Shown: piece by piece, positions 1 to 25,909 of the stretch
Position numbering within the stretch: position 1 is the first letter of the stretch
How the letters are laid out: each line of letters begins with the position of its first letter
Origin: Embleya scabrispora DSM 41855
GTDB taxonomy: Bacteria; Actinomycetota; Actinomycetes; Streptomycetales; Streptomycetaceae
DNA length: 64,000 nucleotides
NCBI RefSeq assembly: GCF_000372745.1
Contig: NZ_KB889708.1
Span: forward strand, 186,001 to 250,000
Direction of reading: 5' to 3'
Notes under the pieces: model-generated
Databases searched by the model: none
What the model was told of the DNA's origin: nothing
The model's input: only the letters and a program-made list of their open reading frames with translations
Translations under genes and position numbers: made by a program

Positions 1-504
1 CTGATGATCCTGGCGTGCCACCAACAGAGCACCGCCCGCCCGGCGTTGATCGCCGGCTTCTGGGCGCCGACGATCAGGATCACGCGGGCGGCGCCGCCGG
101 AGTAGGCGGGTACTTGGCTGCCGCTGCCCGAGGCGATCACGAGGGAGCCGGTTTCGGTGAGCGCGGCGACGCTGCCGACGACGACGTCGGGACTGGCGAG
201 AAGCTGCCGGATCTCATCGGCCTGGGTGGCGCGGTCCATCCCGAGAACGCGTGGCTTGACGGCTCGGTACCGGCCGTTGGAGTTGATGTCGGCGTCGATG
301 CCCGACAAGCGGAGGCTTTCGCCGGCCGAGGTGAACACGCTCGCATCCTCGGGGATCAGGTCGGGGATGCGCGTACGCGCGGCGGCGACGTCGTCGAGGA
401 TCTCGACGGCGAACCCGTTCGCAGTCAGCGCGGTGGCCGTCCGCTCCAGGCGGTCCGACGGATGCCGGATCGGTGAACGGGGTGGTCGAAGGTCGGGTGG
501 TCAT
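1..504 (-). pseudogene. LUD-domain protein, frameshifted and cut by window edge
   Basis: The first 15 codons (MTTRPSTTPFTDPAS) read in one frame. The LUD (LutC/YkgG-like) body then continues one base off, beginning SDRLERTATALTANGF and running through LIPEDASVF, ADEIRQLLASPDVVVGSVAA and YSGGAARVILIVGAQK. A single-base indel near base 460 therefore breaks the gene, or a sequencing error does. After GAQK the usual helical C-terminus is not recognisable, so the end may be lost too; the window edge prevents a decision. LUD proteins of this actinobacterial type resemble the lactate-utilisation subunit LutC, but their substrate is not established. The start lies 2 nt after the stop of the SnoaL-like gene, so the two were one operon. 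Confidence 0.75.
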
Positions 505-506
505 GG

Positions 507-962
507 TCAGTGCTGTCCTTCCGCCGAGTGGGGGGCCGAGCCGGTCAGTGGGGTGGTGTCGAGGTACCTGACCTCGTAGACGCGCTCGCTGAACTTCCAG
601 CCGTCCGGAGTGCGCTGGTAACGGTCGTGGTAGATCGCGTAGTTCAGGCCCTGGCGGCCGTCGAGCGCGCGGGCGACTTCGTGCATGTAGGCACGGCCGG
701 TCGCGGTGCCGCCGTCCAGGTGGACCGTGCCCGGGTGCGTGTTCTGTACGAAGAAGTCCCACTGGGCCTGCAGTTGCTCGCGGCCGGTGCGGATCTCGTC
801 CCGACCGACCAACTCGACGGGGATATTGGGCATGCGCAGCGCGCCGTCCGGCGTGAACAGCGATGCCAGGCGGGCGCAGTCGCGCATCATCACCGCGTCG
901 GTGAACTCGGCACGCAGCGCGTCGATTTCCACACGATCTGCGATGGCCTGCAAGTCGGTCAC
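507..962 (-). CDS. SnoaL-like / NTF2-fold protein
   Basis: 151 residues, GTG start preceded by GAGGAG. The sequence is a single cone-shaped NTF2/SnoaL-like fold: an N-terminal helix (IDALRAEFTDAVMMRDCARLASLF) leads into FTPDGALRMPN, and the C-terminus has the typical DGWKFSERVYEVRYLDTTP strand pair. Members are small cyclases, isomerases or ligand-binding proteins; the substrate cannot be read from the sequence. It is divergent from an ECF sigma-factor remnant whose lost C-terminal half was itself SnoaL-like, and shares with it the mirrored promoter at 1002-1072. It was therefore probably a target of that sigma factor. The downstream LUD gene is broken, so this may be the only working member of the unit. 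Confidence 0.8.
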   Translation of the reverse strand: MTDLQAIADRVEIDALRAEFTDAVMMRDCARLASLFTPDGALRMPNIPVELVGRDEIRTGREQLQAQWDFFVQNTHPGTVHLDGGTATGRAYMHEVARALDGRQGLNYAIYHDRYQRTPDGWKFSERVYEVRYLDTTPLTGSAPHSAEGQH

Positions 963-1001
963 TGGTCTCTCCTCGTCGGGTCACCGTGGGTGTCTCAGCT
1001 G

Positions 1002-1072
1002 TTCGACAAGACAGCACCGCGAAATGTGAGGCGAACCGATAACCTCACATTTCGCGGTGCTGTCTTGTCGAA
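1002..1072. promoter_or_regulatory. Perfect 30-bp inverted repeat; mirrored divergent ECF-type promoters
   Basis: Bases 1002-1031 and 1043-1072 are perfect reverse complements separated by 11 nt. Read outward, each arm contains TCACA, 16 nt, then TGTC. This resembles the ECF41/SigJ promoter pattern (TGTCACA near -35, CGTC near -10). Each arm points at one of the divergent genes (SnoaL-like at 962, ECF sigma at 1111). I infer two identical autoregulated promoters rather than a terminator. Confidence 0.6.
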
Positions 1073-1110
1073 ACAGATGGAGGACCGCCGCGATCGAGGA
1101 GCCGAGCACC

Positions 1111-1500
1111 ATGACCACCCCCGCCGAGCCAGGCCACGACCGACACGAGCCGAGCCTGAGCGCGGTCACGAACGAGCGGCGCCGGCTGATCAGCCTCGCC
1201 TACCGGATGCCGGGCTCCAGGGCCGACGCGGAGGACGTGGTTCAGGAGACCTACGCCCGCTGGTATGCCATGTCCCGGCGGGAGTAGGAGGCCATCGAAG
1301 CCCCCGGCGCCTGGCTGACGACCGTCGCCAGCCGTAACGATGCCCTGCTCGGCCTGCTCGATCCCGACGCGGTCGTGACCGGCGACGGCGGCGGGCCGGC
1401 CAACGCCAAGCTGCACCCCATCGAAGGCGGCGAGCGGATCGCCCGCTACCTGGTCGAGCTCGCCGGCCTGGCACGCGGCGATTTGGCATTCAACCACCGG
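1111..1500 (+). pseudogene. ECF41-type sigma factor remnant
   Basis: The N-terminus is a clear sigma-70 region 2: ERRRLISLAYRMPGSRADAEDVVQETYARWY. A TAG stop at 1285-1287 follows MSRRE, and reading through it continues in frame with EAIEAPGAWLTTVASR. The sequence then jumps straight to LLDPDAVVTGDGGG, the start of the SnoaL-like C-terminal domain of ECF41 sigma factors, so region 4 is deleted. The frame ends in low-complexity sequence after LARGDLAFNHR. The gene has a nonsense mutation, an internal deletion and a missing end, and cannot make a working sigma factor. Its GAGGAG ribosome site is intact. Confidence 0.8.
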
Positions 1501-1643
1501 CATCCCTCCGTGAGCCCCCACCGCGCACGCGCGCGACGGACACCACGTACACGTGTTACTCCCGCCACCCAACGACGTCCTGGCGGCGTGGGATGAAAAC
1601 CGCCGGCTGAGCGTGCTCGCAGCCGAAAACTCGGCCACGCCCG

Positions 1644-18193: not shown

Positions 18194-19597
18194 ATGAGAA
18201 TCGCCACGGCCGTGCTCGTTGCCGTCGCCACACTGCTCGGCGGGGTCGGGGCGAACTCGGGCTCCGGCTCTGTCCCGAGCGTCGCGTCGGTGCGCGATGA
18301 GGCGCCGGCCGCGGGCGGGGTGCGGGCGCCTGCGGACCTGGTGAGAACACCCGCGGCGCCCTCGTACACGGTCGACCTCGCCGGTGACGCCACGGGCCGC
18401 GTGTGGACCGGCCACGAGCGGGTGGGCTTCACCAACGCCTCGGCCGATCCGCTCGCCGAGGTGTACCTGCGGTTGTGGGACAACGCGCACGGCACGTGTG
18501 CGGCGCCGCCGATCACGGTCTCCGAGGTCGCCGGCGGCACCCCGGTGGCCCTGTCCGTCGACTGCACGGCCCTGCGGATCGTCCTGTCCAAGCCGCTCGG
18601 CCGCGGCGAGCGCACCTCGATCGCCTTCGATCTACGGATCGAAGTCCCGGACCGCGTCGACCGGTTCGGCCACGACGGCGAGCACGCCATGCTCGGCAAC
18701 GCGTTGCCGCTGCTGGCGATTCGGGACGCTGCGGGCCCGCATCTGGACCCCTATACCGACCACGGCGAGTCCTTCTACTCCCTCGCGGCGGACTTCGACG
18801 TCACCCTCGACCACCCCGCGCGCCTCCGGGTGCCCGCCACCGGCACCTCGGTCGAGTCCCCGGGGGCGCCCGGTCGTACGGTCACCACCGCAACGGCGCG
18901 CAAGGTCCGTGACTTCGCGTGGGCCGCGGGGCCGTTCGCCGCCATCTCCGGCACCTCCGCCACCGGGGTCCGGATCAACGTCCACGCGGACGACGGCATC
19001 GACCCGTCCGACGCCAGGGCCATGCTGGACGTGGCGCTGACGAGCGTCGACGCCCACGCCGGGCGCTTCGGTGTCTACCCGTACGCCGAACTGGACGTCG
19101 TCCTGGACGACGATCTGTGGTTCAGCGGCATGGAGTACCCGGGCTTCGTCCTGGACCGGGTCCGGTCCACGGCACTCGTCCACGAAATCGCGCACCAGTG
19201 GTGGTACGGGATCGTCGGCAACGACGAGTACAACGACCCCTGGCTCGACGAGTCGTTCTCCGAATACGCCACCGACCTCGCCCTCGGCAGGACCGGCGAC
19301 GGCTGCCGAGACGGCTTCTCCTGGGCCGCGCCGACGGAACGGCTCACCGACTCGATGCGGTACTGGGACGCCCACCCGTCCCGCTACGAGGCCGTCGTCT
19401 ACGACTACGGCAAGTGCGCCCTGCACGAACTCCGGCGACTGATCGGCGATGCCCCGATGGAGACGCTGCTGCGTGGCTACGCCGCCGACCACTGGTACGG
19501 GATCTCCACGACGGCCGAGTTCAAGCACGCGGCCCAGGCGGCGGCCGGCACCCACGACCTGACGCCGTTCTGGGCACGGCACCGCATCGACGGCTGA
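18194..19597 (+). CDS. Secreted M1-family zinc aminopeptidase
   Basis: 467 residues with a short N-terminal hydrophobic segment (IATAVLVAVATLLGGVGANS) that looks like a signal peptide. The gluzincin site is H330-E331-I-A-H334 with the third ligand E353 (DPWLDESFSEY). The usual GAMEN exopeptidase loop is changed to SGMEYPG, as in many secreted actinomycete M1 enzymes. The catalytic Tyr is probably in SRYEAVVYDYGK. M1 enzymes trim N-terminal residues from peptides outside the cell. It follows the nucleoside cluster after a terminator, so it is a separate unit. A role in removing an amino acyl group from an exported precursor, as reported for leucyl-blasticidin, is only a suggestion. Confidence 0.85.
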   Translation: MRIATAVLVAVATLLGGVGANSGSGSVPSVASVRDEAPAAGGVRAPADLVRTPAAPSYTVDLAGDATGRVWTGHERVGFTNASADPLAEVYLRLWDNAHGTCAAPPITVSEVAGGTPVALSVDCTALRIVLSKPLGRGERTSIAFDLRIEVPDRVDRFGHDGEHAMLGNALPLLAIRDAAGPHLDPYTDHGESFYSLAADFDVTLDHPARLRVPATGTSVESPGAPGRTVTTATARKVRDFAWAAGPFAAISGTSATGVRINVHADDGIDPSDARAMLDVALTSVDAHAGRFGVYPYAELDVVLDDDLWFSGMEYPGFVLDRVRSTALVHEIAHQWWYGIVGNDEYNDPWLDESFSEYATDLALGRTGDGCRDGFSWAAPTERLTDSMRYWDAHPSRYEAVVYDYGKCALHELRRLIGDAPMETLLRGYAADHWYGISTTAEFKHAAQAAAGTHDLTPFWARHRIDG

Positions 19598-20268: not shown

Positions 20269-20600
20269 CCGATGGAAGATCCTCACGCGTTTCAAGCGTG
20301 CCGTAATTGTGACCACCGGAATCGTCGTCGCGGCGGCGAGTGCAAGCGCCGTCCCCGCCCAGGCCGCAGCCTCGAGAGTTGCGTAGCCGACGGTCACCGC
20401 CTCCACTCCCGCTCAGGTGGAACTCGACACCCCAGTCACGCCGGCAGCCGGCTGGAGGATCGCCGCCGTCTTCATCGAGCGGAACAAGCGTGTGGACGTG
20501 AGGCAGCGATACCAGCGCGAGGGCTGGAACTCGTGGAAGTGCGACTACGACATCCTGCGCAATCACAGCTCCCAGCCTTCGCGCTGGTACATTTCCCCGG
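20269..20600 (+). pseudogene. Small secreted protein, broken paralogue of the 24252 gene
   Basis: Deleting one G after ATG at 20269 gives MKILTRFKRAVIVTTGIVVA and a clean signal peptide ending SAVPAQAA. A TAG after AASRVA interrupts the frame. Beyond it the same frame continues to VTPAAGWRIAAVFIERNKRV and QRYQREGWNSWKCDYDIL. The last part closely matches YQREGWNEWKCSYEP of the intact protein at 24252-24503. The gene thus has a start-proximal frameshift and a nonsense codon. One cysteine of the family's pair (CVDAGQQ) is also replaced (VDVRQR). Confidence 0.65.
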
Positions 20601-20773
20601 CTGAACGTGCCGAGGTGCCCCGACCTGGCCCCATATCGGCGATGAAACCGACGAAAGCCTGGAGTCAGGGCCACTACTGTCCATCGGTCCGGCGCCGCGA
20701 GGTGCAGATGGGGCCACCCACTCCCCGATCGACCGGATACGGGCCGATCGAGCGAGTGATCAGCCCACCGGAG

Positions 20774-20968
20774 CTACGGAACCCAGACAGCCGGCCCGGA
20801 CGGAACCCAGACGGCCGGCCCGGACGGAACCCAGACCGCGGGAGCGTCCGCAGGCACCCAGACCGCCGGCTGAGAGGGCGCGGAATCCGCCGCTTGTGCG
20901 GGAGCGCCGAGGGTACAAACCGCCGCGATGGCGACCCCCGCACCGAGGAATAGCGTACGCATGCGCAT
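20774..20968 (-). CDS. Small secreted AVWVP-repeat peptide
   Basis: 64 residues from an ATG preceded by AAGGAAGGG at 6 nt. The signal peptide MRMRTLFLGAGVAIAAVCTL ends at APAQAA. The mature part is only about 37 residues and consists mostly of four PAVWVP units joined by ADA, SG and SG, ending exactly after the fourth unit. It has four tryptophans, no cysteine and almost no charge. I know no family. The 24-nt repeat is nearly identical in the last two units, which suggests recent expansion. It might be a cell-wall-associated or signalling peptide, or a processed precursor; none of this can be shown here. A palindrome pair lies in its upstream region. Confidence 0.7.
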   Translation of the reverse strand: MRMRTLFLGAGVAIAAVCTLGAPAQAADSAPSQPAVWVPADAPAVWVPSGPAVWVPSGPAVWVP

Positions 20969-20993
20969 ATCGTTTCCCTTCCTTCGGATAAAA

Positions 20994-21020
20994 CACGTGC
21001 GCTGGATGGCGACGCACGTG
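20994..21020 (-). promoter_or_regulatory. Inverted repeat upstream of the AVWVP peptide gene
   Basis: CACGTGCG (20994-21001) and CGCACGTG (21013-21020) are perfect reverse complements 11 nt apart. Each arm itself contains CACGTG. It lies 26-52 nt upstream of the ATG, a position suited to an operator. Confidence 0.5.
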
Positions 21021-21380: not shown

Positions 21381-22955
21381 CTATTCCCGTGTGGGGAATG
21401 CTCGATCCTCGCCTTCGGCCCGGCGGTCCCCGGCCAGGATTCGGTTGGCCAGCCACAGGTCGTGGCGGGCGCTCGGCGAGCTCAACAAGGATCTGTGCAG
21501 GGTCTGTTCGACCTTGATCAGGCGCTTGCGCGCGCCCGTGACGGAGATGCCCAGCGCCTCGGCGGCCGCGCTGAGCCGACCGTCGTGGCTCAGCCACGCT
21601 GCCAGGATCGCCTTTAGCGGCTCGGCGTTGGGCGACTCGCGGAGGGGTCGCATCCGGGCCAGGGCCCAGCGCCGCGCGGCGGCCGTGCCCAGTAGTTCCT
21701 CGAAGGTGGGCGTCGATGCGGCGGTGGGCGACTCGGCGGAATCCGCGTCCGGCCCGCGCGGTACGGCTCGGGCGCGGAAGGCGAGGTCGAGCTTCGCCTG
21801 GTCGCCGACGCGCTCCAGGTCGAGGTCGAGGAGTTCCTCGATCCGGCTTAATCGCGCGAGCAGGGTATTGCGGTGGATCTTCAGATGCCGGGTCGCGGCC
21901 GTGGAGAACGTGAGCCAGGACCGCGCGGTGGCCTCCAGTTCCTGACCGGTGGGCGCCGAACTGCGGGCGGGAACGTGTTCGGTCAGCGGCCGCAGCAGGC
22001 TGTCGGCCCAGCCGAGGCCGTCCCGGCCGATGACCGCGGACAGCTCCAGCGTCGCGTCGAAGCCGGCCCATCGTCGGGACAGACCGCGTGCCGTCGCCAG
22101 GGCGTGGAAGGCCTGTTCGTAGCCCAAGGCCGTCTCGTGCAGCCGCAGCGGCTCGCCGGCCCCGACCACACACGTGTCGATGCGCGCGGTGAGGCCGGCA
22201 GCCAACGGGGAAGCGTCCTCGGTCCCGGTGTCCGGTGGGACGGCCTCGATCACGATCACGTGCTCGACGTAGACGGGGCAGCGCACGATCCACGCCCGCC
22301 CCGCGGTCAGTTCGGTGCACGCTTCGACGACCTCGCGCCGTCGATCGTTCTTGCACTCGACCACATATACCCGGGCGGGATCGTGCAGCGGGGGCGACAG
22401 CGTCGACGCGATCTGTTTCGCGGTCGCCAGGTGGCCGGACATGAGCAGGTGCAAGACCGCTTCGCGACCGCGTGCGTCGGCGGCCTCCACCCGTCGCCGG
22501 GTGCGTTCGTTCTCCGCCGCTCGCCTACAGCCGCCGAGCATGATGGCCGCGTCCGCCACTGTGGGCGAGAGGACCGCGCGTGCGCCCAGGACGGCGACCA
22601 CGAGTCCGCAGCGGCTGCCCGGGCCATCCGCGACCACCAACACGCCTCCCTCGGTGGTGCCGGCGTCCAGGACGATGGTGCGCAGGTCGCGGTCGCGCAG
22701 CCGGGTCAGCCCCTCGACGACCGTCGCGACCTCGGCATGGTCGGGCCGCCGCGACGCCCCGGCGATCGGATTCCCGACCGCATCGAACAGCCCGACCCAG
22801 CAGCCTGTGTGCCGGGCGAGCCATTGCAGGAGGGCTTGCCCTCCGTCGGCTTTCCGTGAGAGTCGATGCATGGTCAACACATCGGCGGCGCGGCGCTCGT
22901 GATCGACGTGCGAGGAGGTCTCCGGGGACTCGGCCCTCGGGCGTTCCGTACTCAC
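21381..22955 (-). CDS. PucR/CdaR-type transcriptional regulator with two C-terminal HTH units
   Basis: 524 residues from a GTG with AAAGG upstream; the frame is open further but has no better start. The N-terminal half is a GAF-like sensor (ALLQWLARHTGCWVGLFDAVG). The middle is the GGDEF-like PucR core (RGREAVLHLLMSGHLATAK to GYEQAFHAL). The standard PucR helix-turn-helix follows (TRHLKIHRNTLLARLSRIEE). Unusually, another 100 residues follow with a second similar unit (LSAAAEALGISVTGARKRLI, then KVEQTLHRSLLSS). It stands alone, so its target is unknown; the AVWVP gene upstream and the small secreted genes beyond are candidates. Confidence 0.82.
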   Translation of the reverse strand: MSTERPRAESPETSSHVDHERRAADVLTMHRLSRKADGGQALLQWLARHTGCWVGLFDAVGNPIAGASRRPDHAEVATVVEGLTRLRDRDLRTIVLDAGTTEGGVLVVADGPGSRCGLVVAVLGARAVLSPTVADAAIMLGGCRRAAENERTRRRVEAADARGREAVLHLLMSGHLATAKQIASTLSPPLHDPARVYVVECKNDRRREVVEACTELTAGRAWIVRCPVYVEHVIVIEAVPPDTGTEDASPLAAGLTARIDTCVVGAGEPLRLHETALGYEQAFHALATARGLSRRWAGFDATLELSAVIGRDGLGWADSLLRPLTEHVPARSSAPTGQELEATARSWLTFSTAATRHLKIHRNTLLARLSRIEELLDLDLERVGDQAKLDLAFRARAVPRGPDADSAESPTAASTPTFEELLGTAAARRWALARMRPLRESPNAEPLKAILAAWLSHDGRLSAAAEALGISVTGARKRLIKVEQTLHRSLLSSPSARHDLWLANRILAGDRRAEGEDRAFPTRE

Positions 22956-23390
22956 GTGAGGACACCTTTCGGAACCCGTGACGTCACTTACGGCGGGTGG
23001 GCACCGAGGCGGCACCGCGACCGCCCACCCCGTGCTTCTGTAGACCGAGGCCACGACACCCACGCGCGCGGGGCGTCCGGCGAACCTTCGGGCTGCCGAT
23101 CGACGGGGCGCCATCGGCCGTGACGGCCACCGGTCCGCCGGCCCGATGGAGCATCCGCACGAGCGAGGGACTGACAAGGGAAGTCATGCGGCACCGAACC
23201 CACTTCGGGTGTGAGCGCGCCGAGGACGCGCGCCGGAACTATATCCCCCACGGCTCGGAGACGGGTCTCATTTCCTTCGCGAATGGGCCAGTCCATGTGG
23301 CGGGCCCCTGATCGACACCACCGTACGGACAAGGTCGCCCATCAACCCTTCACCGTGCCATATGGGTTGAACGACAAGTAAGCGGCGATT
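22956..23390. other. Intergenic stretch upstream of the PucR gene
   Basis: No supported gene. It should contain the PucR promoter. GGGTGGGC (22995-23002) and GCCCACCC (23023-23030) form an inverted repeat 40 nt upstream of the GTG, a possible autoregulatory operator. Short open frames on both strands lack ribosome sites. Confidence 0.4.
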
Positions 23391-24251: not shown

Positions 24252-24503
24252 ATGCGCAAGATGACAACCCTACTGGCCATGTTGGTCGCCCTTGGGGCCA
24301 TGTCCGCTCAGGGCACCTCTGCCGTGGCGGCCGCCTCGCCCCCCACTCCCGTCGCGGCCCAGTCCGGCGGGTGGCTCTTCGTGGACACCTACGTCAACTG
24401 GAGCACATGCGTGGATGCCGGCCAGCAGTACCAGCGCGAGGGCTGGAACGAGTGGAAGTGTTCCTACGAACCTATCGGCGTATACCGGCTCTTCATCCGC
24501 TGA
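24252..24503 (+). CDS. Small secreted two-cysteine protein
   Basis: 83 residues, ATG after AGAAGG. The signal peptide is RKMTTLLAMLVALGAMSAQG with cleavage likely after SAVAAA. The mature part of about 55 residues has two cysteines likely to form a disulfide (WSTCVDAGQQYQ and WKCSYEP) and ends VYRLFIR. It resembles the many small exported proteins of streptomycetes with a C...GxxY..GW..W.C pattern, whose function is unknown. The pseudogene at 20269-20600 is a paralogue, and both lie downstream of a copy of the 141-bp repeat. Confidence 0.75.
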   Translation: MRKMTTLLAMLVALGAMSAQGTSAVAAASPPTPVAAQSGGWLFVDTYVNWSTCVDAGQQYQREGWNEWKCSYEPIGVYRLFIR

Positions 24504-25033
24504 CAACACACCAGAGGGTGTGGGCAACGGGAGCCGCGCGACGACCGTGCCGGCACAGCGGCGATCCTCCCGCCGGACGGCGAGGGCGGCCTAGTCGACC
24601 TGGACGTACGCCATCCGACGGACCGACCGTTCCCACGGGGGCGAGTTCCTCGTGCGTCGGTCGGAACGTGCCCTGCCGACGGTCGAAATGCTGTCTCGAT
24701 ATCGTGGCTCCCGGCCACCTCGGCGCCCGCCATCCCGAATACGCGATGACATCCGTTTTCGGCCGATCCGGTCCGAGACGTATACGCGGCATCCACATCG
24801 TGATGGGATGACCCGTCGGTGGCGACAGATGCGAATACGTCGGAACGGTCGGCTCGTTCCTTCTCTCGTGAAGTCGACCGACCACGGGTCGGACATGTCA
24901 CGCACTCACTCGCACCGCTGCCCGGCCGTCTTCTATTTCTCTCGCGCATGGCATGACAAGGCACGGTAGGAGTGAGGCCCGGCGAATGGCGGACTCGGCT
25001 TCGCCGGTGGTACCAACCATCCAAGGAGACGCT
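24504..25033. other. Intergenic stretch before the protease gene
   Basis: No gene with a ribosome site or consistent codon bias on either strand. The final 100 nt should contain the protease promoter. Nothing else recognisable. Confidence 0.4.
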
Positions 25034-25909
25034 ATGTTAGGGAAATCGACCCGTAGGCGAGACGACGGGCGCCGGCATGGCAGGCGAGGCCCACTCGCGA
25101 CAGGCGCAGCGATCGGCGTGGCCGCGGCTCTCTTGGCCGCGCTCCCCGCCGTTGCCCAGGCCGGGGAGGTGACTCCGTCCATCGTCGGTGGTGCGCCGGC
25201 GAGTGAGCCGTACACGTTCGTTGTATCGATCCAGGTGGCTCGGGGGGACGACCCGAACCATCACACCTGCACCGGAACACTGGTCGCCTCCCGCTGGGTG
25301 GAGACTGCGGCACACTGCGTGACCACCTATCCGAGCGTCGCGCCCAACGACCCTTCGCTCTACCACGTGCGGGTCGGTTCGCTCGACCGCACCACCGGCG
25401 GTGTCGTGGCGAACGTCGCCTCGATCAAGGTGCATCCCACCTGGGACTGGGCCACCGGCGATGATCCCGTGGGCGACATCGCGCTTCTCGAACTCGACCG
25501 TGACGTAAACCGGATACCGGCGCTGATCGGTCCCGGTCCGGGTGGGCCCGGCGCGACCGTCCGCATGCTCGGGTGGGGCCGAACGATCGCGGGGGATCCG
25601 AATTCGCTCCCGAAGGGATTGCGGCAACTCGACAGTGCGCTGCTCCCGAACGCTTCGTGCGGTATCACCACCGGCGAACTGTGTGTGGACGACCACGAGC
25701 ACACCGCTGCGGCCTGTAATGGCGACTCCGGCGGACCGGCTTTGCGCAAGGTGTACGGCATCTGGACTCTCGTCGGAAACGACAGTCGTGGGCTGGGCGA
25801 ATCGTGCGCCGACGCCCCGGAGGTCTACACGGATATCACGCATTACCGCACATGGGTCTACTCCACGATTTTCGGGCTGAATGCGCCGGCCGCTGCTACG
25901 ACCGGCTGA
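25034..25909 (+). CDS. Secreted trypsin-like serine protease (S1)
   Basis: 291 residues, ATG after AAGGAGA. A basic, Arg-rich N-terminus (KSTRRRDDGRRHGRRGP) precedes the hydrophobic segment ATGAAIGVAAALLAALPAVA; the twin-Arg stretch could suit Tat but Sec is as likely. The mature chain starts near SIVGGAPASEPYTFVVSIQ. The catalytic triad is His in ETAAHCV, Asp in GDIALLELDRDV and Ser in CNGDSGGPALRK. Asp six residues before that Ser is absent, so trypsin-like specificity for Lys/Arg is uncertain. Two disulfides are predicted. It stands alone and is closed by a bidirectional hairpin. Confidence 0.88.
   Translation: MLGKSTRRRDDGRRHGRRGPLATGAAIGVAAALLAALPAVAQAGEVTPSIVGGAPASEPYTFVVSIQVARGDDPNHHTCTGTLVASRWVETAAHCVTTYPSVAPNDPSLYHVRVGSLDRTTGGVVANVASIKVHPTWDWATGDDPVGDIALLELDRDVNRIPALIGPGPGGPGATVRMLGWGRTIAGDPNSLPKGLRQLDSALLPNASCGITTGELCVDDHEHTAAACNGDSGGPALRKVYGIWTLVGNDSRGLGESCADAPEVYTDITHYRTWVYSTIFGLNAPAAATTG

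Follow-up and report, generated by a model that had tools for sequence, protein, structure and literature searches.

Signals of actinomycetes are typically small molecules made by enzymes, according to the available part of PMC10075063, and the LuxR proteins of Actinobacteria are called intriguing in the accessible text of the review PMC4748050, as acyl-homoserine lactones are not known to act in these bacteria. The closest described peptide systems belong to Bacillota. In the available sections of PMC11343458, Phr propeptides are described in which one pheromone occurs as many as 8 times and is released by extracellular proteases, and in those of PMC5199041 intragenic duplication goes along with a change in specificity. 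The criteria for RRNPP pairs given in the accessible part of PMC10075063 are a propeptide of 10–100 aa by default, Sec secretion (SignalP), a receptor of 250–500 aa, TPR, and adjacency from −60 to 400 bp. A literature search, with subscription papers and preprints mostly outside its scope, found nothing relevant on the PxxWΦP family described here or on its motifs.

The gene under study lies in a 64-kb window, i.e., the whole stretch of DNA that was analysed, of an 11.39-Mb assembly in 190 contigs. It is encoded on the minus strand from 20968 to 20774, with the ATG at 20968–20966 and the stop codon TAG at 20776–20774, and specifies a protein of 64 aa (open reading frame list). A strong ribosome-binding site, GAAGGAAGGG (20976–20985, minus strand), is located a few bases 5′ of the ATG. 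Further upstream, a palindrome with 8-bp arms, CACGTGCG-N11-CGCACGTG, is followed by TTTT (20994–21020, minus strand). The corresponding hairpin is present in the minimum-energy fold, with a z-score of only −1.15 for the region as a whole, and the palindrome may be an operator, a 5′ hairpin or the terminator of the upstream gene. A sigma-70 scan found no promoter. The signal peptide MRMRTLFLGAGVAIAAVCTLGAPAQA (20891–20968, minus strand) was recognized by eye in the translation. It consists of MRMR, a hydrophobic core and APAQA, with the predicted cut before AD.

The remainder of the protein is almost entirely made up of four PAVWVP units at 20852–20869, 20825–20842, 20801–20818 and 20777–20794 (all on the minus strand; translation and repeat comparison). 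The stop codon comes right after the fourth unit, with which the C-terminus thus coincides. The linkers ADA, SG and SG give periods of 9, 8 and 8 aa, and at the DNA level the tandem repeat is four 24-nt copies. An earlier sequence-only reading had described the gene with its ribosome-binding site, signal peptide and upstream palindrome, and a mature product of little else than four PAVWVP units ending on a repeat; all of this was borne out, the signal peptide by eye and the repeats by translation, and its coordinates, given without a strand, were correct. Its description of the composition as uncharged is mostly accurate, the exception being two Asp residues in the mature part.

The four 18-nt units differ from each other at 4 of 18 bases. 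Each of these four is a third codon position with fourfold degeneracy, an outcome with P = 0.0016 if placement were random, and pairwise comparison of the units gave 14 silent vs 0 replacement differences. Since the bases vary only silently, it is the hexapeptide, and not the DNA, that has been kept. This silent-only variation shows that the frame is protein-coding and, together with relatives elsewhere, rules out a chance open reading frame.

The window protein had been thought to fit no family. It indeed had no match in Pfam or NCBIfam, but relatives exist in another genus. When 394 genomes of the family were searched with the window protein (best 15 candidates per genome scored), 37 genomes reached E 0.01 or better, and besides the window's own match two were convincing, namely those in Streptomyces sp. 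PH10-H1 (G131) and Actinacidiphila rubida (G050). Their E values of 9e-6 and 5e-5 per genome indicate a modest match resting on the repeats. The PH10-H1 protein has a signal peptide and five PAVWVP/PDVWVP units, its PAVWVP unit being identical to that of the window. The A. rubida protein has a signal peptide and six PDNWVP/PANWVP units and ends on WVP. A pattern of three tandem WVP motifs was found in 5 of the 394 family genomes, and three of these five are the precursors themselves. In the genome collection, the WVP pattern matched 59 stretches, of which only two were secreted WVP-repeat proteins, each belonging to this family. Searching viral and genome collections with the single protein yielded no relative, and a pattern scan of viral sequences returned 3 contigs, none with a secreted precursor of the PxxWΦP kind.

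A profile search for the peptide in 394 genomes (best 12 candidates per genome scored) matched 30 genomes of one sister genus (g6), the same 30 as for the regulator described below, as well as the window protein at E 1e-6, this protein being itself one row of the profile. Five of the 35 g6 genomes listed were without a peptide in this search; as both this search and the one with the window protein scored only the best candidates of each genome, absences in other genomes carry little weight. Weak matches in other genomes, or in other places of the same genomes, numbered 17; six of them were inspected, three with their surroundings. When the profile was run against 394 genomes at the level of the class, 7 had matches, one being the window's own and the rest weak. 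The other six were scanned by pattern, and G103 alone was inspected closely.

We define a PxxWΦP precursor as a signal peptide with at least one P-x-x-W-Φ-P unit (Φ = V, I, L, F, W or Y), in which x-W-Φ-P does not vary within the precursor. A family of such precursors exists, and the window protein has the same build, with a signal peptide (by eye) and four identical PAVWVP units. It is likely, although not certain, that the window protein is a homologue of the sister-genus family, as judged from the repeats. Conservation in close relatives, to which the sequence-only reading had looked, was not seen, as the frame was missing from all three congeners; like proteins are instead conserved in another genus. 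The search for PAVWVP repeats and copy-number variation in other actinomycetes that it had suggested was fruitful, the sister-genus precursors carrying 1–11 units with Φ differing by species. These precursors are 66–172 aa long, many of them exceeding 100 aa, as would be expected from a larger number of repeats. A signal-type N-terminus was detected by a hydropathy rule in 29 of the 30 relatives, with a basic N-terminus, a hydrophobic core and an AxA site by eye. Genome G108 has only a degenerate AAVWWT at the sister-genus locus. Elsewhere in G108 (L264, 1212–1496, plus strand), a secreted tandem-repeat precursor with units like APANFYTDV was observed, and the fetched stretch had no match to the LuxR-type regulator.

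Positions 3 to 6 of the unit were then compared within the 23 precursors that contain at least two units (22 relatives and the window). The x-W-Φ-P core was invariant in 23 of 23, with 426 silent vs 0 replacement differences between units; because the pattern that picked the units demands W and P and allows six residues at Φ, the free tests are positions 3 and 5 only. Decayed units skipped by this pattern are QELWAP in G093, QQLWDP in G114 and a PAGRFT remnant in G058. Positions 1 and 2 vary within precursors. The x-W-Φ-P core is thus under purifying selection within precursors. On the regulator tree, Φ changes 9 times, compared with a mean of 16.5 after shuffling, and all V, I and L forms fall on one branch (11 rows, SH-aLRT 88). 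Φ is therefore lineage-specific, and the core is uniform inside each precursor but differs from species to species. Copy number changes fast, as the near-identical regulators of PH10-H1 and four close relatives are paired with 5, 2, 1, 1 and 1 intact units. In single-unit precursors, the unit forms the C-terminus or lies close to it. WΦP makes up the very end of the chain in 5 of the 30 relatives and in the window protein; a C-terminal tail after the last unit is kept in several precursors.

In both PH10-H1 and A. rubida, the peptide gene is located directly downstream of a gene for a LuxR-type regulator, on the same strand. This regulator served as the query in 150 genomes of the family, 38 of which had a match at E 1e-40 or better, and the best 30 loci of that search, one per genome, were inspected; all are from g6, with 53–100% identity. 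A small secreted protein of the PxxWΦP kind was found downstream of the regulator by an automatic screen in 29 of them and by hand in the 30th (L134). The distance between regulator and peptide gene is ~130–170 nt in 30 of 30 loci, which also form one syntenic locus (30/30) with pentapeptide-repeat and DUF genes alongside and, in 25 of 30, a glutathione peroxidase gene. The conserved neighbours, named by eye, are PBP- and FtsW-type genes, the pentapeptide-repeat protein, the glutathione peroxidase, the DUF protein and an oxidoreductase. Between regulator and peptide gene, a conserved stretch contains two GCG-N6-CGC sites in many members and is a candidate operator. The window has no evident copy of this motif.

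Two of the sister-genus regulators are 364 and 429 aa long. All 15 regulators scanned with Pfam have the GerE DNA-binding domain, and 8 of these 15 match the TrmB-like PF11495 at E 0.1 or better (best 5e-6), with bit scores of 18.9–21.3 for three regulators, just below the cut-off of 22.2 bits. Of the 32 Pfam families matched by the 15 regulators, the 25 that were listed include no TPR family. AlphaFold, given two sequences, produced a poor model of the regulator (mean pLDDT 50) that was confident only in its N-terminal helical and winged part.

An adjacent LuxR-type regulator, which we count as a second feature of the PxxWΦP family, is missing beside the window gene: in the 64-kb window, tblastn found no match to the regulator at E 1e-8, and the window's genome had none at E 1e-40. 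The best LuxR homologs in this genome are distant (E 5e-32 or weaker) and have no peptide neighbour of this kind. One distant LuxR-type homolog of this genome (L190, contig C1 near 371000) has a gene for a 92-aa secreted protein, with WSTYQCTGGGQFENYELWVK at its end, 237 nt downstream. More distant LuxR-type loci were also screened for peptides: a first screen of 20 loci gave only unconvincing open reading frames, and a second one of 33 loci found nothing in 30 and unlike proteins in the other three. In G103 (L265), a distant LuxR-type regulator with 31% identity (92–1210, plus strand) is followed after 178 nt by a gene for a 60-aa secreted peptide ending in PQVWVALDEKSIGWD (1389–1571, plus strand), possibly an independent regulator–peptide pair. 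When the G103 regulator was in turn used as a query, it gave 30 loci, and G103 itself was the only one to show a peptide with any such likeness. A 78-aa secreted peptide ending in AGVWVG was seen in G269 (L266, 1262–1498, minus strand), its gene lying directly upstream of an apparent response regulator and sensor kinase (names by eye).

The window shares genes of ~73–93% identity with three congeners up to an M1 peptidase gene that ends at 19597. After this point the similarity ceases; in one of the three, the downstream stretch ends with its contig. The region that holds the peptide gene and, upstream, the gene for a PucR-like regulator is therefore not shared at this place. The window protein was absent from all three congeners, also in the profile search, and no DNA-level similarity to the peptide gene was found within the genus. 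The PucR-like gene (21381–23177, minus strand; open reading frame list, Pfam) has the same orientation as the peptide gene and precedes it by 412 nt. Its product, 598 aa when counted from the first start codon, contains HTH_30 and no TPR in the Pfam scan, and its relatives within the genus are only 34–36% identical. Downstream of these relatives there was no such peptide at any of 4 loci. The PucR-like regulator is a possible partner or receptor of the window peptide, as a candidate only.

The region of the peptide and PucR-like genes is flanked by the M1 peptidase gene (18194–19597, plus strand) and a trypsin-like protease gene (24953–25909, plus strand). Both proteins, assigned to their families by Pfam, have signal-like N-termini and could process the precursor, although secreted proteases are common in the Streptomyces family. 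At 20280–20620 (plus strand), YQREGWNSWKCDYD looks like the decayed copy of a gene for a small secreted protein, with an intact relative nearby at 24252–24503 (plus strand), YQREGWNEWKCSYE. The two share 47 nt at 85% identity and have no Pfam match. That the gene encodes a leader or arrest peptide acting on the next gene was rejected, as no convincing minus-strand gene lies directly downstream, and so was a mobile or phage origin, with no match to phages or plasmids in tblastn.

Multi-copy Phr propeptides release their pheromones in the same manner that we propose for the PxxWΦP precursor, which we liken to a propeptide for signals. The window gene would encode a propeptide for short PxxWΦP signalling peptides that are read by a transcriptional regulator, a reading that we consider about evenly poised between right and wrong. 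The propeptide, judging from its sequence, would be exported by the Sec pathway and cleaved outside the cell into short Trp-Pro peptides P-x-x-W-Φ-P, which here would be PAVWVP, four per precursor. The receptor for the released peptides would, in the sister genus, be the LuxR-type regulator, after re-import of the peptide or otherwise. The window copy is an orphan, a peptide without the LuxR-type regulator, with the PucR-like neighbour, a distant regulator or a foreign cell as candidates for its receptor. For this reading count the pairing of regulator and peptide at one syntenic locus in 30 genomes, the purifying selection on the core, the lineage-specific Φ, the C-terminal placement of single units, the chains that end on WΦP, the PAVWVP unit shared with PH10-H1 and the parallel with Phr. 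Against it count the lack of linkage between the window gene and the LuxR-type regulator, the distant LuxR homologs of its genome without such a peptide, the conserved motif not evident in the window, the modest match to the nearest relatives, the restriction of the free tests to positions 3 and 5, and the more distant LuxR-type loci, which, G103 aside, gave nothing of this kind. The sequence-only reading had offered a precursor of identical short peptides or a cell-surface or aerial-growth peptide. The former is better supported, by identity within precursors, change between species, single C-terminal units and a linked regulator in 30 relatives, its cleavage being presumed; for the latter, no evidence was found. 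A broader claim, that these precursors represent a class of gene-encoded peptide pheromones in the Streptomyces family, one not found in the papers searched, with residues 3 and 5 as a species code read by LuxR-type regulators, is put forward tentatively, as it seems to us rather doubtful. If true, it would provide a peptide ligand for these LuxR-type regulators, and the window organism would share the word PAVWVP with a distant genus without having its regulator, i.e., as an orphan or cross-genus signal. The tie of the peptide gene to one LuxR-type regulator in 30 genomes and the short readable code make a direct test with a synthetic hexapeptide possible.

The proposed signal has to be weighed against a secreted effector, in which the chain or its pieces would have their activity at the surface of the cell or towards other organisms, as an antimicrobial, surface-active or wall-associated Trp/Pro peptide. 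The adjacent LuxR-type gene could then simply regulate the effector, as regulators often adjoin their targets. The window copy, which has no LuxR-type regulator and lies beyond the end of congener synteny, as effector genes often do, would agree with this, and so would the C-terminal tails past the last unit in several precursors. However, the peptides have no cationic or amphipathic character, and species-specific homogeneous codes and single-unit C-terminal versions are typical of signals, not of structural repeats. We regard an effector as possible but doubtful. Homogenisation of tandem repeats alone could also make the copies alike, but the silent differences argue against recent conversion.

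It is also conceivable that the window protein shares no ancestry with the sister-genus family and that its WVP repeats arose by independent local duplication in a secreted low-complexity protein. Synteny and regulator are not shared, DNA-level similarity is lacking in the genus, the E values are modest, and tandem WVP-like frames of other origin were common in the pattern searches. All six positions of the unit nevertheless match a family member, only two of the 59 pattern stretches, both of this family, are WVP-repeat proteins with a signal peptide, and a search with the family profile recovers the window protein at the E value given above, even if as one of its own rows. We consider an independent origin unlikely. 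More unlikely still is that the precursors are multi-core RiPP substrates, with cores that an enzyme modifies either before export or after it. A fixed Trp in tandem cores is reminiscent of multi-core precursors in general, but there is no modifying enzyme among the conserved neighbours in the sister genus, and the nearest genes in the window are those for the M1 peptidase, the PucR-like protein and the trypsin.

Among known systems, multi-core RiPP precursors share tandem near-identical cores with a fixed Trp with the PxxWΦP precursors, and differ in that no modifying enzyme is conserved beside the sister-genus gene. The yeast alpha-factor precursor likewise begins with a signal peptide, after which come tandem units, varying in number, that contain Trp and Pro. 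It differs in being eukaryotic, in its cleavage at dibasic sites and in its GPCR receptor, and no homology is implied. The Rap-Phr systems of Bacillota, within RRNPP(A), resemble the PxxWΦP system in their small Sec-type precursor, which bears a short peptide either C-terminally or as tandem copies (available parts of PMC11343458, PMC5199041 and PMC10075063). Their peptide gene also adjoins that of a regulator of 250–500 aa, and their code is in some cases homogeneous within the precursor and changes between lineages. In contrast to Rap-Phr, the present system belongs to another phylum, the sister-genus regulator combines a LuxR-type DNA-binding domain with a weak TrmB-like match and no TPR match (15 members), and no regulator of this type adjoins the window copy. 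With regard to the RRNPP criteria, the window protein (64 aa) lies within 10–100 aa. Its upstream regulator, which is of another family, lies just outside the adjacency limit at 412 nt, is longer than a receptor of 250–500 aa and, like the 15 sister-genus regulators scanned, shows no TPR match. The sister-genus pair has the receptor length (364 and 429 aa), the adjacency (~130–170 nt in 30/30) and probably the secretion of an RRNPP pair. It departs from one in showing no TPR match and in the many precursors above the default size. By analogy, it would work like such a pair, although we do not file it as a member.
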